This document shows positions 41,524-51,843 of a stretch of 64,000 nt of DNA, piece after piece (the stretch's first letter is position 1; every line of letters starts with the position of its first letter). The notes beneath the pieces were generated by a model. That model was given only the letters and a program-made list of their open reading frames with translations. It did not search any database and had not been told where the DNA came from. The stretch is taken from contig NZ_VFNI01000002.1 of assembly GCF_006715495.1 (NCBI RefSeq), positions 1 to 64,000 on the forward strand, given 5' to 3'. The stretch is from Herbaspirillum sp. SJZ106. GTDB lineage: Bacteria > Pseudomonadota > Gammaproteobacteria > Burkholderiales > Burkholderiaceae_D. The position numbers and the translations under genes are program-made.

Positions 41524-42432
41524 TCAGGCCGCGCGCTTGGCCGCGATGGCATTGCCGGCGCGGCTGACCGATTTGCGGCCCAGGTGCTGCGAAATGAACT
41601 GGCCGGCGTCGACCACCGCATTGAGGTCGACGCCGGTGTCGATGCCCAGCCCCTGCATCATGTACAACACGTCTTCCGACGCCACGTTGCCGGTCGCGCC
41701 CTTGGCATAGGGGCAGCCGCCCAGGCCCGCCACCGACGAATGGTAGATGGTGATGCCGGCCTGCAGGCTGGCGTAGATGTTGGCCAGCGCCTGGCCGTAG
41801 GTGTCGTGGAAGTGGCCGGACAGGCCCTCGATATGGAATTCGCGGATCGCCGTTTCCATCACCGGCCGCACCTTGTCGGGCGTGGCCACGCCGATGGTGT
41901 CGGCGATGTCGATCTCGTCGCAGCCCAGTTCGCGGAAGCGGCGCACCACATCGGCCACCGCGTCCAGCGGCACCTCGCCCTGGTAAGGGCAACCGAAGGC
42001 GCAACTGACGGCCGCGCGCAGGCGCTTGCGGTGCTGCTTGGCGGCCGTGGCGACTTCGCGGAAGCGCTCGATCGATTCGGCGATCGAGCAGTTGATGTTC
42101 TTTTGCGAAAACGCCTCGGACGCCGCGCCGAAGATCACCACTTCATCCACGCCGGCTTCCAGCGCCGCCTCGAAGCCCTTCATGTTGGGCACCAGCGCCG
42201 AATACACCACGCCGGGTTTGCGCGTGATGCCATGCATCACTTCGCTGGAGGTCGCCATCTGCGGCACCCACTTGGGCGAGACGAACGAGGCCGCCTCGAC
42301 ATTGGGAAAACCGGCCGCGGTGAGCCGGTTCACCAGCTCGATCTTCACCTCGGCGGAGATGGTTTCCTTCTCGTTCTGCAAGCCGTCGCGCGGGCCGACT
42401 TCGACGATTTTTACTTTTTTCGGCAGGCTCAT
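41524..42432 (-). CDS. mvaB: hydroxymethylglutaryl-CoA lyase
   Basis: TIM-barrel lyase of 302 residues that splits HMG-CoA into acetyl-CoA and acetoacetate, the last step of leucine breakdown. VEVGPRDGLQNE near the start and the catalytic-loop segment GGCPYAKGATGNVASED (active-site cysteine) are diagnostic, with the metal-binding HFHDTYG in between. The ATG at 42432 gives MSLPKKVKIVEVG; a longer frame runs through the YbaK gene. It lies at the far end of the liu cluster. Confidence 0.95.
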   Translation of the reverse strand: MSLPKKVKIVEVGPRDGLQNEKETISAEVKIELVNRLTAAGFPNVEAASFVSPKWVPQMATSSEVMHGITRKPGVVYSALVPNMKGFEAALEAGVDEVVIFGAASEAFSQKNINCSIAESIERFREVATAAKQHRKRLRAAVSCAFGCPYQGEVPLDAVADVVRRFRELGCDEIDIADTIGVATPDKVRPVMETAIREFHIEGLSGHFHDTYGQALANIYASLQAGITIYHSSVAGLGGCPYAKGATGNVASEDVLYMMQGLGIDTGVDLNAVVDAGQFISQHLGRKSVSRAGNAIAAKRAA

Positions 42433-42479
42433 GTTGCGTGTCTCCTCTTGTCTCTTGTATGGCCGGCGATGCGGTGGCA

Positions 42480-42995
42480 TCAGGCGGCGTTGGGTACGGG
42501 ATCCAGCTTGACGTCGGCGACCAGGCCGCCGGTCATCTTTTCCAGCTGGGCGGCGGTCAGGTTGAACACCGCGTGCGGATGGCCGGCCGCCGCCCACACG
42601 CTGGGATAAAGGAACAGGTCGCGGTCGATCAGCATCACCGGCTTGACCACATGGCCGACCGGGCATACGCCGCCGATCGCATAGCCGGTGCTGTCGCGCA
42701 CGAACCTGGCGTCGGCCTTGCCCAGGGGGCCTACCAGCGCGGTCACCTTGGCTTCGTCGACGCGGTTGCTGCCGCTGGCGATCACCAGCACCGGCGCATC
42801 GTCGGTCACGCGCCGGAAGATGATCGACTTGGCGATTTCCGACACGCTGCAGCCCAGGCCGGCGGCGGCTTCGGCCGAGGTGCGGCCGGTCGCCGGCAGC
42901 ATCACCACCGGTTTGTCATGCCCGAGTTGGGCCAGCAGGTCGGAAACGCGTTGGGCGGAAGAGGGCAGGGCGGCGGTATCGGCGGTCTGGGTCAT
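42480..42995 (-). CDS. YbaK/EbsC-family deacylase-like protein
   Basis: A 171-residue protein of the prolyl-tRNA-synthetase-editing fold. It shows the SVSEIAKSIIFRRV and YAIGGVCPVGH stretches of the YbaK/ProX group, including the conserved lysine and the GGVCPVGH turn. Such proteins remove mischarged Cys or Ala from tRNA-Pro. It sits inside the liu cluster between HMG-CoA lyase and a metallo-hydrolase; its link with leucine breakdown is unclear. Confidence 0.88.
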   Translation of the reverse strand: MTQTADTAALPSSAQRVSDLLAQLGHDKPVVMLPATGRTSAEAAAGLGCSVSEIAKSIIFRRVTDDAPVLVIASGSNRVDEAKVTALVGPLGKADARFVRDSTGYAIGGVCPVGHVVKPVMLIDRDLFLYPSVWAAAGHPHAVFNLTAAQLEKMTGGLVADVKLDPVPNAA

Positions 42996-44006: not shown

Positions 44007-46022
<2,016 letters not shown>

Positions 46023-46045
46023 GGGGTCTCCTCCGTGGGCGCGGT

Positions 46046-47680
46046 TCAGATGCGGAACACGCCGAATTTGGTTTCTTCGATAGGCGCATTGAGCGCCGCC
46101 GACAGGCCCAGCGCCAGCACCGTGCGGGTGTCGGCCGGATCGATCACGCCGTCGTCCCACAAGCGCGCCGAGGCATAGTAGGGATGGCCCTGCGTTTCAT
46201 ATTGCGCGCGGATCGGTTCCTTGAAGGCGGCTTCTTCTTGCGCGCTCCAGCTGCCGCCGCGCGCTTCGATGCCGTCGCGCTTGACGGTGGCCAGCACGCT
46301 GGCGGCCTGCTCGCCGCCCATCACCGAGATGCGCGCATTGGGCCACATCCACAAAAAGCGCGGCGAGAACGCGCGTCCGCACATGCCGTAATTGCCGGCG
46401 CCGAAGCTGCCGCCGATGATCACCGTCAGCTTGGGCACGGCGGCGGTCGACACTGCCGTCACCATCTTGGCGCCGTGGCGGGCGATGCCTTCGTTCTCGA
46501 CTTTCTTGCCGACCATGAAGCCGGTGATGTTCTGCAGGAAGATCAGCGGGATCTTGCGCTGGCAGCACAGCTCGATGAAGTGCGTGCCCTTCTCGGCCGA
46601 TTCCGAAAACAGGATGCCGTTGTTGGCGACGATGCCCACCGGCATGCCATGCAAGTGGGCGAAGCCGCACACCAGCGTGGTGCCGTAGCGGGCCTTGAAC
46701 TCGTCGAACTGGCTGCCGTCGACGATGCGCGCGATCACTTCGCGCACGTCGAAGGGCTTGCGGGTGTCGGTGGGGATCACGCCGTACAGTTCATGCGCCG
46801 GATACTTCGGCGCGACGCTCTCGCGCAGCGCCAGTTGCTGCGGTTTCTTGCGGTTGAAGTTGCCGACGATGCCGCGCGCGATCGACAGCGCATGCAGGTC
46901 GTCTTGCGCCAGGTGGTCGGCCACGCCGGACAGGCGCGTATGCACGTCGCCGCCGCCCAGTTCCTCGGCCGTGACCACTTCGCCGGTGGCGGCCTTCACC
47001 AGCGGCGGGCCGGCCAGGAAGATGGTGGCCTGTTCCTTGACGATGATGGATTCGTCGCTCATGGCCGGCACGTAGGCGCCGCCGGCGGTGCACGATCCCA
47101 TCACGACGGCAACCTGCGGGATGCCCTTGGCCGACATATTGGCCTGGTTGAAGAAAATGCGGCCGAAGTGGTCGCGGTCGGGAAAGACCTCGTCCTGGTT
47201 GGGCAGGTTGGCGCCGCCGCTGTCGACCAGGTAGATGCAGGGCAGGTGGTTGAACTCGGCGATCTCTTGCGCGCGCAAATGCTTCTTGGCGGTCATCGGG
47301 TAGTAGGTGCCGCCCTTGACCGTAGCGTCGTTGCACACGATCAGGCATTCCTGCCCGGCCACGCGGCCGATGCCGGTGATGATGCCGGCCGAGGGCGCGG
47401 CGTCTTTCAGGTTGCCGTCGCGGTCCTTTTCACGGTACATGCCATAGGCCGCCAGCTGCGAGAATTCGAGGAAGGGCGTGCCGGGGTCGAGCAGCATCTG
47501 CACCCGGTCGCGCGGCAGCAGCTTGCCGCGCGCCAGGTGCTTGTCGCGCGCGGCCTGGCCGCCGCCTTCGGCGATCGCCGCGACCTTTTGCTTCAGGTCG
47601 TCGACGATGCGTTGCATGGCATCGCGGTTGGCCTGGAAATCCTCGCTGCGCGGGTTGAGCTTGCTTTCGATCTGCGGCAT
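46046..47680 (-). CDS. liuB: methylcrotonyl-CoA carboxylase beta subunit
   Basis: Carboxyltransferase subunit of 544 residues. It opens with [24 protein letters not shown] (part) and contains [18 protein letters not shown], a crotonase-like oxyanion region of the family, and [12 protein letters not shown] toward the C-terminus. With LiuD it forms the 3-methylcrotonyl-CoA carboxylase of leucine degradation. It is separated from the YchJ gene by 78 bases that contain a short tandem repeat. Confidence 0.95.
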
Positions 47681-47733: not shown

Positions 47734-47763
47734 CTTATGGCGGGGCTTATGGTGGGGCTTATG
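47734..47763. repeat. short 12-base tandem repeat after the YchJ gene
   Basis: CTTATGGCGGGG and CTTATGGTGGGG follow each other with one mismatch, then CTTATG again. The tract starts at the stop codon of the YchJ-like gene. Probably replication slippage; no function implied. Confidence 0.6.
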
Positions 47764-48184
47764 CGTCGCCCGGGAAGTTGCCATCGACGTAGTACCAGCG
47801 CGGCGTGCCATCGGCGTCCGGCTGGCGCACGAAGTTGCTGATCTCGTGCATGCGGTGCGCCTTGCCGCCGACCTTGAAGCGCGCCACGAACTCCACCGTG
47901 GCTTCGTCGCTGCCGGCGACATGGGTTTGCTTCTTGATGTCCAGGCCGATCCAGTTGACGTCGGTCTCGCCGGTCAGATCTTCTTCCGGCAAGGTCTCGG
48001 GGAGCCAGGTCGCGCGTAGGTAGGCTTCATCGCGCAGCGCATAGGCGCTGTAGCGCGAGCGCATCAGCAGTTCGGCCGTGGCGGGAATTTCCGCGCCCGA
48101 GATGAAGCGGCCGCAGCAGGCGGCGAAGGCGCCCTTGCCGCAGGGGCATGCGCTGCCCTTGGCGTGGTCTTTCTTGGCGGCCAT
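47759..48184 (-). CDS. YchJ-like SEC-C motif protein
   Basis: A 141-residue protein starting with a SEC-C-type zinc motif, CPCGKGAFAACCGRF (about 12-26), followed by an NTF2-like fold with YSAYALRDEAYL. The C-terminal copy of the zinc motif found in some YchJ proteins is absent. Function unknown; it may act in protein quality control or metal handling. Its start overlaps the stop of the preceding isomerase gene, so the two are translationally coupled. Confidence 0.87.
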   Translation of the reverse strand: MAAKKDHAKGSACPCGKGAFAACCGRFISGAEIPATAELLMRSRYSAYALRDEAYLRATWLPETLPEEDLTGETDVNWIGLDIKKQTHVAGSDEATVEFVARFKVGGKAHRMHEISNFVRQPDADGTPRWYYVDGNFPGDA

Positions 48185-48786
48185 CAGATCTTCCCGTTTG
48201 CCAGGAAGGCATCCAGTTGCGGGTAGCGGTCGAAGCCCCAGAACGGTTCGCCGTCCACGATCACGAAGGGCGAGCCGAACACGCCTTGCTTTGCTGCTTC
48301 CTCGGTCGCCAGGCGCAGCTTGTCCTTGATCTCCTGGGTGCCCAGCGCCGCTTCCAGCGCGGCATGGTCGATGCCGAGGTCGCCGGCGATGCGCAGCACG
48401 TTGGCCGGCACGCTGATGTCGATGTCTTCGGTGAAGTAGGCGCTATAGACGGTCTGGATGAAATCGACCGCCTTCGCCGGCTGCTGCTCTTGCACCCACA
48501 GCGCGGCGCGCGCGGCGACTTGCGTGCCGATGGGGAAGTTGCCGGGTTCCTTGAAGAAGATATTGTGGAAGCGGGCGGTGCGCCCCATGTCGTGGCGCGA
48601 GTATTCGCCCTTGACCGGGATGGTGACCAGCGAGTTGGTGCCGATGTTCTTGAAGATCGGTCCCAGCAGGATGGGATGCCAGTTGACCTGGCGGCCGTAT
48701 TTCGCCGCCAGCTTGCCGATCTCGACGGCGCCGAAGTAGCCGTAGGGGGAGCTGAAGTCGAAGTAGAAGTCGATGGGCTTGCTCAT
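48184..48786 (-). CDS. 2-hydroxychromene-2-carboxylate isomerase-family protein
   Basis: A 200-residue thioredoxin-fold protein of the DsbA/kappa-GST group. It opens with PIDFYFDFSSPYGYFGAVEIG, the family's glutathione-binding serine/tyrosine stretch, and has GVFGSPFVIVDGEPFWGFDR near the C-terminus. Close relatives isomerise 2-hydroxychromene-2-carboxylate in naphthalene breakdown, but many members lie in acyl-CoA clusters with other roles. Here it sits directly after liuA, so it may serve leucine/isovalerate breakdown. Confidence 0.9.
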   Translation of the reverse strand: MSKPIDFYFDFSSPYGYFGAVEIGKLAAKYGRQVNWHPILLGPIFKNIGTNSLVTIPVKGEYSRHDMGRTARFHNIFFKEPGNFPIGTQVAARAALWVQEQQPAKAVDFIQTVYSAYFTEDIDISVPANVLRIAGDLGIDHAALEAALGTQEIKDKLRLATEEAAKQGVFGSPFVIVDGEPFWGFDRYPQLDAFLANGKI

Positions 48787-48813: not shown

Positions 48814-49998
48814 TCAGAGGGTATCGGCGAACAGTTCGCGGCCGATCAGCATGCGGCGGATCTCGCTGGTGCCGGCGCCGATTTCGTAGAGCTTGGCGTC
48901 GCGCCACAGGCGGCCCACCGGATATTCGTTGATGTAGCCGTTGCCGCCCAGCGCCTGGATCGCTTCGCCGGCCATCCAGGTGGCCTTCTCGGCCGAGTAC
49001 AGGATGGCGCCGGCGGCGTCCTTGCGCAGCGCGCGCACCTGTTCCGGCGAGGCGGCGCGGTCGCAGGCCTGGCCCACGGCATAGACATAGGCCTTGCAGG
49101 CCATCATGGTGGAATACATGTCGGCCAGCTTGCCCTGCATCAGCTGGAATTCGCCGATGGCCTGGCCGAACTGCTTGCGGTCGTGCACGTAGGGCACCAC
49201 CGCGTCCATGCAGGCCTGCATGATGCCCAGCGGGCCGCCGGAGAGCACCGTGCGTTCGAAGTCCAGGCCCGACATCAGCACGTTGACGCCGCGGCCGACG
49301 CCGCCCAGCACGTTTTCTTCCGGCACCTCGCAATCCTGGAACACCAGCTCGCCGGTATGCGAGCCGCGCATGCCCAGCTTGTCGAGCTTTTGCGCCACCG
49401 AGAATCCCTTGAAGCCCTTTTCCACCAGGAAGGCGGTCATGCCGCGCGCGCCGGCTTCCAGGTCGGTCTTGGCGTACACCACCAGCACGTCGGCGTCGGG
49501 CCCGTTGGTGATCCACATCTTGCTGCCGTTGAGCACGTAGCGCTCGCCCTTCTTGTCGGCGCGCAGCTTCATGCTGACCACATCGGAACCGGCGTTGGGT
49601 TCGGACATCGCCAGCGCGCCGATGTAGTCGCCGGAGATCAGCTTGGGCAGGTATTTTTGTTTTTGCGCGTCGTTGCCGTTGCGCTTGATCTGGTTCACGC
49701 ACAGGTTGGAGTGGGCGCCGTACGACAGGCCGATGGAGGCCGAGGCGCGCGAGATTTCTTCCATCGCGACGATGTGCGCCAGGTAACCCATGTTGGCGCC
49801 GCCGTATTCCTCGCTGGCGGTGATGCCCAGCACGCCGAGGTCGCCCAGTTTCTTCCACAGGTCCATCGGGAATTGGTCGCTGCGGTCGACCTCGGCGGCG
49901 CGCGGGGCGATTTCGGCGGCGGCAAAGGTGGCTACGGCCGCGCGCAGCGCATCGATGTCTTCGCCGTGGTTGAAGCTCAGTCCTGGCAGGTCGGGCAT
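48814..49998 (-). CDS. liuA: isovaleryl-CoA dehydrogenase
   Basis: FAD acyl-CoA dehydrogenase of 394 residues, oxidising isovaleryl-CoA to 3-methylcrotonyl-CoA. The catalytic base is Glu248 in [16 protein letters not shown], placed in the helix position specific for isovaleryl-CoA dehydrogenases rather than near the C-terminus. FAD contact text [17 protein letters not shown] and the C-terminal [19 protein letters not shown] are typical. The ATG at 49998 (MPDLPGLS) is chosen; a longer frame crosses the operator. It is the first structural gene of the liu operon, behind the LiuR operator. Confidence 0.95.
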
Positions 49999-50053
49999 GC
50001 TTGTCTCCTCATTGTCGGTAGTCGTTTTTTCGATGCCGGTTCTGTGCCGGCGT

Positions 50054-50071
50054 GTTGACGTTAACGTCAAC
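50054..50071. promoter_or_regulatory. LiuR operator upstream of liuA
   Basis: Perfect 18-base palindrome GTTGACGTTAACGTCAAC, 56 bases before the liuA start and 30 bases from the liuR stop. It shares the core ACGTTAACGT and the following TATATTGT with the second site at 50633-50650. LiuR-type MerR regulators are known to bind ACGT-centred palindromes upstream of liu genes; assignment here is by position and symmetry. Confidence 0.8.
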
Positions 50072-50100
50072 TATATTGTCTTCCGGTGTGCGCGGTATCT

Positions 50101-50523
50101 TCAGGCGGCCTTGCGGCGGGGCTTCGGCGCGCCGCTTCTTTTGCCCGCGTCTTCCAGCAGCGCGCGGCATTCGTCTTCATGCGCGGCGATCTCGGCCAGC
50201 GTCAATTCCAGGTCTTCGCGCTGGCGTTCCAGCTTGTCGCGGTGCTGCTGCAGCACGCCCAGGAAGCGCTGCAATTGCGGCTCGGTATCCTTGGGCGATT
50301 CGTACATGTCGATCAGATCCTTGATCTCCGAGAGCGTGAAGCCGAGGCGCTTGCCGCGCAGCGTCAGTTTCAGCCGCGTGCGTTCGCGTGCCGGATAGAC
50401 GCGGTTGCGGCCGCCCGCGCCTTCGCGCTTGGGATTGAGGATGCCGTGATCCTCGTAGAAACGGATCGCCCTCGGGGTGATTCCGAACTCTTCCGCCAGT
50501 TCGCTGATGGTGTAGGTGGGCAT
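50101..50523 (-). CDS. liuR: MerR-family regulator LiuR
   Basis: Regulator of 140 residues. The N-terminal helix-turn-helix reads YTISELAEEFGITPRAIRFYED, followed by the MerR-type wing (NPKREGAGGRNRVYPARERT) and a dimerisation coiled coil (about 75-120). The C-terminal Arg/Lys tail is short and lacks metal-binding cysteines, so it is an organic-ligand sensor type. LiuR controls leucine/isovalerate catabolism in proteobacteria. It lies upstream of liuA with operators on both sides, so autoregulation is likely. Confidence 0.93.
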   Translation of the reverse strand: MPTYTISELAEEFGITPRAIRFYEDHGILNPKREGAGGRNRVYPARERTRLKLTLRGKRLGFTLSEIKDLIDMYESPKDTEPQLQRFLGVLQQHRDKLERQREDLELTLAEIAAHEDECRALLEDAGKRSGAPKPRRKAA

Positions 50524-50632
50524 GATGGCTCGCTCTGCGTCGAACGGGAATATTGGTTAAGCTGGTCCGGAGGTACCGCCATGCGTCTCTTTGCACGGAA
50601 CGGATGCGGCATCGAAACTTCCGGAACTGGCA

Positions 50633-50650
50633 CTTTACGTTAACGTAAAG
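50633..50650. promoter_or_regulatory. second LiuR operator, upstream of liuR
   Basis: Perfect 18-base palindrome CTTTACGTTAACGTAAAG, followed by TATATTGT as at the first site. It lies between the divergent liuR and metallo-hydrolase genes and could control both. Confidence 0.78.
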
Positions 50651-50778
50651 TATATTGTGCTCCGTCGTCCAGTGGAAAATGCAGGAGACATGACGGCCTG
50701 GGCGTTTTATTGTCCGTACGGCAATGTCTTGCCCGTTCTTCGTTCCGCTTTCTTTCGTTTCATCTTGTCAGGTATTTC

Positions 50779-51843
50779 ATGAATGAACTTGAATCCCAGC
50801 TCGACTACGCCTTCGGCGACGCCATGCCGGAAAGCGGCCGCACCATGGAGGTGGCGCCAGGCGTGCGCTGGTTGCGCATGGGTTTGCCCTTCGCGCTGAA
50901 CCACATCAACCTGTGGCTGCTGGAAGATGAAGTCGAAACGCCGCAAGGTTTGCGGCGCGGCTGGACCGTGGTCGATTGCGGCATCGCCACCGATGCGACC
51001 AGGCAGGCATGGGAAACCATCTTCGCCGAGGAGTTGAACGGCTTGCCGATCCTGCGCGTGCTGGCCACGCATTGCCATCCGGACCATGTCGGCCTGGCCG
51101 ACTGGCTGTGCCGGCGCTGGCAGGCGCCGCTGCTGATGAGCGCCGGCGATTATGCGTTCGCGCGCGTCATGTCGGCGGCCTTGCCGGGCGCCGAGGGGAC
51201 GGCGGCGACGCCGCATTTCCAGCGCCACGGCCTGGCCGATCCGCAGACGATCGCCACGCTGCAGGGCCGCAACAATTACTACCAGGAATTGGTGCCGGCG
51301 ATGCCGCATGCCTATGCGCGGCTGCAGGATGGGCACGCCGTGCGCATCGGCGGGCGCGACTGGGAAATTATCACCGGCTTCGGCCATTCGCCGGAACATG
51401 TATCGCTGTACTGCGGCGAATTGAACGTGCTGATTTCAGGCGACATGGTGCTGCCGCGCATCTCGACCAATGTCTCGGTATTTGCGATCGAACCGGAATC
51501 CAACCCGGTGCAGCAATTCCTGGATTCATTGAAGAAGTATGCGCACCTGCCAGCCGACGCGCTGGTGCTGCCGTCGCACGGCAAGCCGTTCCGCGGCCTG
51601 CACACCCGCATCGCCCAGCTCGACGAGCACCATCGCCTGCGCCTGGCCGAGGTATTGGAAGCGTGCGCCACGCCGCAGACCGGGGTGGATATCCTGCCGG
51701 TGCTGTTCAAGCGCGCGCTGGATACGCACCAGCTTTCGTTCGCCCTGGGCGAGGCGGTGGCGCACTTGCACAAGCTTTGGTACGACGGTGCGTTGCGGCG
51801 GGAATTGGGCGAGGACGGGGTTTATCGTTTTGTTGCCGTCTAG
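50779..51843 (+). CDS. metallo-beta-lactamase-fold hydrolase divergent from liuR
   Basis: MBL-fold enzyme of 354 residues. The zinc motif is ATHCHPDHVGLADWL (HxHxDH), with GFGHSPEHVSLYC and ISGDMVL supplying further ligands and VLPSHGKPFRGLHTRI near the C-terminus. The C-terminal helical region (about 285-354) is typical of the larger thioesterase-like MBL hydrolases. Start at 50779 (MNELESQLD). It is divergent from liuR across one LiuR operator, so it is probably part of the liu regulon. Confidence 0.9.
   Translation: MNELESQLDYAFGDAMPESGRTMEVAPGVRWLRMGLPFALNHINLWLLEDEVETPQGLRRGWTVVDCGIATDATRQAWETIFAEELNGLPILRVLATHCHPDHVGLADWLCRRWQAPLLMSAGDYAFARVMSAALPGAEGTAATPHFQRHGLADPQTIATLQGRNNYYQELVPAMPHAYARLQDGHAVRIGGRDWEIITGFGHSPEHVSLYCGELNVLISGDMVLPRISTNVSVFAIEPESNPVQQFLDSLKKYAHLPADALVLPSHGKPFRGLHTRIAQLDEHHRLRLAEVLEACATPQTGVDILPVLFKRALDTHQLSFALGEAVAHLHKLWYDGALRRELGEDGVYRFVAV

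Follow-up and report, generated by a model that had tools for sequence, protein, structure and literature searches.

The etf genes belong to the LiuR regulon, and the founding LiuR paper (Kazakov 2009) reportedly gave an operator motif of the shape ACGT-N2-ACGT. LiuR itself has been described, in passages of PMC5343134 and PMC3223726, as a MerR-family repressor that acts on operons for branched-chain amino acid utilisation in Proteobacteria, and the former lists LiuR regulons in 103 genomes and gives 104 as the number of regulons elsewhere in its text. In the liuRABCDE cluster of Pseudomonas aeruginosa, LiuR represses the adjoining leucine pathway genes, as is proposed here as well, and the part of PMC8871633 that deals with this cluster names two promoters, P1liuR and P2liuB, and control by CbrAB/Crc, whereas the sites of the present locus lie at liuR and liuA. 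Another regulator, PA3458, was bound at liuR/liuA in P. aeruginosa according to an excerpt of PMC8070244. The classical MerR-type activators CueR, SoxR and BmrR share the DNA-binding family of LiuR and likewise have their operator in the promoter spacer, as is the case at the predicted hydrolase promoter described below; the spacer of MerR activators is given as 19-20 bp in portions of PMC5045206 and PMC8113463. The LiuR repressor regulon is already known, and the operators reported here add to that known system; what sets them apart from the LiuR regulon of Proteobacteria is that a divergent metallo-hydrolase gene shares the liuR operator, which lies within two overlapping promoter-like sites. 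A description of such a shared liuR/hydrolase operator was not found in the literature searched, which is weak evidence with RegPrecise tables and supplements lying outside its scope, and no related paper on LiuR in Herbaspirillum was found in a literature search judged by title.

The window analysed is the whole stretch of 64,000 nucleotides taken from the genome of Herbaspirillum sp. SJZ106 (G000; 4.58 Mb, 14 contigs), and in it the gene of a MerR-family regulator adjoins liu catabolic genes, as recognised by Pfam and PDB matches (Table 1). The LiuA match, together with a carboxyltransferase, a methylcrotonyl-CoA carboxylase alpha chain and a protein of the HMG-CoA lyase type encoded on the same strand, identifies these genes as a leucine/isovalerate (liu) gene run. 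Among solved PDB chains, the best matches of LiuR are to CueR (E about 7e-11). The gap between liuB and liuD measures 23 bp (46023-46045) and holds no hydratase (liuC) gene, and the stretch between liuA and liuB (47759-48786) holds the genes of a YchJ-like protein and of a DsbA-fold protein. The true start of liuE probably lies further in than the one listed. The divergent hydrolase passes no NCBIfam cut-off. Ahead of its gene, a 30-codon open frame (50690-50782) is preceded by AGGAG and overlaps the hydrolase start codon (ATGA); this frame was rejected as a conserved upstream reading frame, its peptide not being kept whole in 11 other loci and L020 sharing the last residues only.

Table 1. 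Genes, predicted operators, flanks and putative promoters of the liu region, in window coordinates.
Feature	Position	Strand	Basis or remark
liuE, HMG-CoA lyase type	41524..42591	-	Pfam HMGL-like 2.4e-57; read from 42591
liuD, methylcrotonyl-CoA carboxylase alpha chain	44007..46022	-	Pfam Biotin_carb_N/C, BT_MCC_alpha, Biotin_lipoyl
liuB, carboxyltransferase	46046..47680	-	Pfam Carboxyl_trans 1.4e-156; name liuB from position and domain
liuA, isovaleryl-CoA dehydrogenase	48814..49998	-	best PDB match 4kto, isovaleryl-CoA dehydrogenase, E 1.1e-195
Predicted LiuR operator upstream of liuA, GTTGACGTTAACGTCAAC	50054..50071	.	direct read
TATATTGT flank of liuA operator	50072..50079	+	exact in G000 alone (27 genus loci)
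liuR, MerR-family regulator, 140 aa	50101..50523	-	Pfam MerR_1 1e-17, MerR-DNA-bind 1.1e-14
Putative hydrolase promoter, CTGGCA-18-TATATT	50627..50656	+	scan; 18-bp spacer is exactly the palindrome
Predicted LiuR operator between liuR and divergent hydrolase gene, CTTTACGTTAACGTAAAG	50633..50650	.	direct read
Putative liuR promoter, TTTCCA-18-TATACT	50649..50678	-	scan; -10 overlaps palindrome end and hydrolase -10
TATATTGT flank of liuR/hydrolase operator	50651..50658	+	genus-conserved; contributes to -10-like boxes in both directions
Divergent metallo-beta-lactamase-fold hydrolase, 354 aa	50779..51843	+	Pfam Lactamase_B 3.6e-28, B_lactamase-like_C 2.4e-23; PDB 6ao1 E 3.4e-138

Direct reading of the letters confirmed the starting observation of the sequence-only reading, namely that two matched palindromes share a core and carry the same flank on the same side. 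Each is a perfect 18-bp palindrome, and the common ACGTTAACGT is exact in both (50058-50067 and 50637-50646), while TATATTGT occurs in two copies in the whole window, both strands counted, one beside each palindrome. Since both liuA and liuR are minus-strand genes, this flank is found 5' of both genes, in the same orientation relative to each, as had also been claimed; as read on the liuR strand it is ACAATATA. Allowing one mismatch, the 10-mer ACGTTAACGT matches twice in the window where 0.36 matches are expected, a count reached by 5 of 100 shuffles, so that the 10-mer alone is weakly significant; the chance of an identical 8-bp flank, calculated from local composition, is about 2e-5 per side and about 5e-5 when both sides are counted. 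A terminator-like call on the liuA-side palindrome was discarded, being that palindrome itself.

The assignment of these palindromes to LiuR, which the sequence-only reading had proposed, was examined in the genome and in relatives. The exact degenerate form TTKACGTWWACGTMAA is found at three places in G000 versus none for its reversed control. With up to three mismatches, the 16-mer TTTACGTTAACGTAAA also gives three places in this genome (0, 2 and 2 mismatches) against 13 for the reversed control; at three mismatches it is thus no better than the control, and what supports the assignment is the exact form together with the relatives. As a search motif ACGTNNACGT alone was rejected as too loose, its 52 places being fewer than the 178 of the reversed control. 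In the relatives set (120 genomes including G000, LiuR-positive meaning a match at E 1e-20), TTKACGTWWACGTMAA is present in 70 of the 72 LiuR-bearing genomes versus 0 of the 48 without LiuR, and in the phylum sample (an even draw of 299 genomes, again including G000) in 64 of 97 LiuR-positive genomes versus 0 of 202 others; the respective Fisher p values, 1.4e-31 and 6e-41, are too small because related genomes are counted as independent, and the pattern is still one-sided in both samples, the motif being present with LiuR and absent without it. The reversed control pattern has matches in 4 of 120 genomes of the relatives set and in 10 of 299 of the phylum sample. The exact form is missing from two of the LiuR-positive relatives (G042 and G061) and from 33 of the LiuR-positive phylum genomes. 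That the palindromes serve another regulator and lie near liuR by chance is extremely improbable, the motif having been found in not one genome of either sample that lacks a LiuR match. This comparative evidence bears out the proposed assignment and points to both palindromes as LiuR operators. The sequence, linkage, conservation and co-occurrence observed here favour, with a probability of about 0.85, the reading that both would be operators of the MerR-family repressor LiuR, acting through the promoters, binding, repression and ligand that are proposed below.

The arrangement of the locus was compared in 70 loci, the LiuR genomes G091 and G097 being left out. When sites with up to two mismatches are counted over a 300-bp range on either side of liuR, 66 loci have one upstream and 57 have one after the gene, both of which are raw counts without a shuffled control; both sites are present in 53 loci and no locus is without both, the liuR-side site being missing in 4 and the after-liuR site in 13. 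The hydrolase gene is divergent from liuR and adjoins it in 65 of the 70. At liuA the operator is a single palindrome in the genus and has a tandem form at most other loci: outside the genus (L049-L088) it consists of three ACGT-type half-sites in tandem, 6 bp apart, in 26 of 30 loci, an arrangement found in 0 of 27 genus loci, which looks as if two LiuR dimers overlapped there. Between the liuR-side operator and liuR, a stretch of about 30 bp (50535-50565; CTGCGTCGAACGGGAATATTGGTTAAGCTGG on the plus strand) is little changed in L019-L025, where its surroundings vary, and was not seen in L026, L030 and L034; a second liuR promoter is conceivable here, as is the site of another regulator.

A sigma-70 consensus scan over 49950-50850 gave two promoter-like sites versus 0.4 expected, both of which embed or touch the palindrome that begins at 50633, and the two divergent -10 boxes overlap in the scan coordinates (AGTATATT). 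In genus loci the best-scoring liuR -10 of a looser scan, run without shuffled control, starts 5 bp (20/32) or 10 bp (9/32) before the 16-mer. Of 32 genus loci, 26 carry the flank at the liuR site without a mismatch and 29 with at most one, and 0 of 34 loci outside the genus have it in exact form; at this site TATATTGT is best read as predicted promoter sequence. The earlier suggestion that this operator would also control the divergent hydrolase gene is strengthened by its position within two promoter-like sites and by the divergent link kept in the 65 loci, such control being predicted.

At liuA the picture is different. The sequence-only reading had concluded from the conserved flank that each operator is built into a promoter, and this is supported on the liuR side, where the flank is kept and promoter-like sites are present, and is not supported at liuA, where one of 27 genus loci (that of G000) and none of 30 others have the exact flank and where no promoter was called. 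The next-best flank at liuA among the genus loci has three mismatches of 8, and L020 and L021, whose LiuR is the most similar, read ACAGAAAA and ACAGCAGC at this place. In a genus-wide search with one mismatch, 29 of 34 genomes carry the extended motif and G000 alone has two copies; in a genome collection that may omit G000, the motif matched 19 stretches (18 of Herbaspirillum and one of a Duganella MAG), all of which lie between liuR and the hydrolase gene. Relatives thus do not keep the flank at both sites. The scan of 49950-50850 returned no promoter-like site at the liuA operator, and a looser scan of the genus loci, without shuffled control and covering the 16-mer with 40 bp ahead of it and 24 bp behind it, found none at 8 of 12 matches in 21 of 27. 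Outside the genus, 19 of 30 liuA loci showed, in a scan likewise loose and without shuffled control, a -10-like hexamer at a constant position, accompanied in 18 of them by TTTACG as -35, so that the operator overlies this -35 box in 18 of the 30.

These results bear on the view that the operator and TATATTGT form one promoter-operator module at both genes, giving liuA and liuR/hydrolase the same architecture. The identity over 8 bp, the rarity of the flank (its sole two window copies, at the per-side chance given above) and the -10-like appearance of both TATAGT at liuA and TATACT at liuR would fit such a module, which is nevertheless rather unlikely given how seldom the liuA flank recurs within the genus, how far the next-best form departs from it, the differing letters in the loci with the closest LiuR, the lack of a promoter call at liuA and the operator before etfB, which is without the flank. 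The liuA flank is probably not a conserved promoter part; most likely, TATATTGT at this site is a coincidence or a new, private -10-like promoter element. A gene conversion that copied the liuR flank onto liuA was weighed and set aside, as the liuA palindrome retains its own outer letters and L020 is 3 bases off in the 8-mer, so that point changes suffice. As for how liuA is transcribed in the genus, our guess is that transcripts started at the liuR promoter run through, the second operator acting as a roadblock.

The third TTKACGTWWACGTMAA place in the genome lies on contig C1 (G000:C1:628846-628861, corresponding to L002:1501-1516), 39 bp ahead of the start codon of etfB, an electron transfer flavoprotein gene, and between a TATAAT and that start, and there is no fourth exact site in G000. 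Of 34 genus genomes, 27 have a site of this type ahead of an ATGAARGT start, at a near-constant distance from the start codon, which places the motif before a functionally linked gene elsewhere in the genome. The expectation that a genome search for the extended motif would define the regulon did not hold, since the extended motif marks one promoter region; it is the palindrome alone that defines the regulon in the genome and genus searches, adding etfB to it. Among the 26 loci examined for other targets of the motif are those of acyl-CoA dehydrogenases (L096, L098) and of a protein with MeaB and B12-binding domains (L093). In the genus member G025, an extra LiuR-type site (L099:1501-1516) is flanked by the genes of a thiolase and of a DctP-type solute-binding protein.

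With these targets in view, the mode of action of LiuR can be considered. At the predicted hydrolase promoter, the interval between the CTGGCA and TATATT-type hexamers is taken up exactly by the palindrome in 27 of 32 genus loci, as judged by the looser scan without shuffled control. MerR-type activators bind at this place, and LiuR could on this basis be imagined as a classical activator that twists a too-long spacer. Such a role is quite improbable: the spacer of both predicted promoters is 18 bp, unlike that of CueR, SoxR and BmrR and short of the 19-20 bp of MerR activators (PMC5045206, PMC8113463); other genera retain the operator and show the palindrome-as-spacer geometry in 2 of 34 loci only; and LiuR is described as a repressor in passages of PMC3223726 and PMC8871633. 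Furthermore, also in contrast to those activators, no single operator-promoter geometry is kept across targets or species, as far as the predicted promoters can be trusted, the operator being placed in the spacer (hydrolase), at the -10 (liuR), over the -35 (liuA outside the genus) or after TATAAT (etfB). Because its placement varies between targets and genera, a blocking repressor is to be expected rather than a MerR-type activator that requires one geometry, and LiuR most likely represses by occlusion.

In the repressor reading, one LiuR dimer bound at the liuR/hydrolase operator would sit on two back-to-back promoters, filling the spacer of the hydrolase promoter and covering the -10/+1 region of the liuR promoter; LiuR lying over both, both would be blocked, and autoregulation is proposed to result. 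At its other operator in the window, LiuR would control liuA and the genes behind it, and transcription from the liuR promoter may reach the liuA run as well. The third operator would extend this control to etfB, and isovaleryl-CoA dehydrogenase would pass its electrons to the etfB product. LiuR would release the DNA upon accumulation of leucine or of a CoA ester of the isovalerate type. A more elaborate two-way switch, specific to Herbaspirillum, is put forward tentatively and is doubtful as a whole: LiuR and the RNA polymerases engaged on liuR and on the hydrolase gene would all compete for one short stretch, in which the operator forms the hydrolase spacer and reaches with its edge into the liuR -10, the overlapping -10 boxes would be mutually exclusive, and liuA would recently have gained its version of the -10 flank in this species.

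In conclusion, a flank match observed in a single genome proved to be of two kinds: at one site it is conserved and likely to be promoter sequence, at the other it belongs to that genome alone. The metallo-hydrolase gene, a frequent neighbour of liuR, would be placed in the leucine-catabolism regulon and is given a likely promoter, and with this promoter predicted a simple induction test becomes possible.
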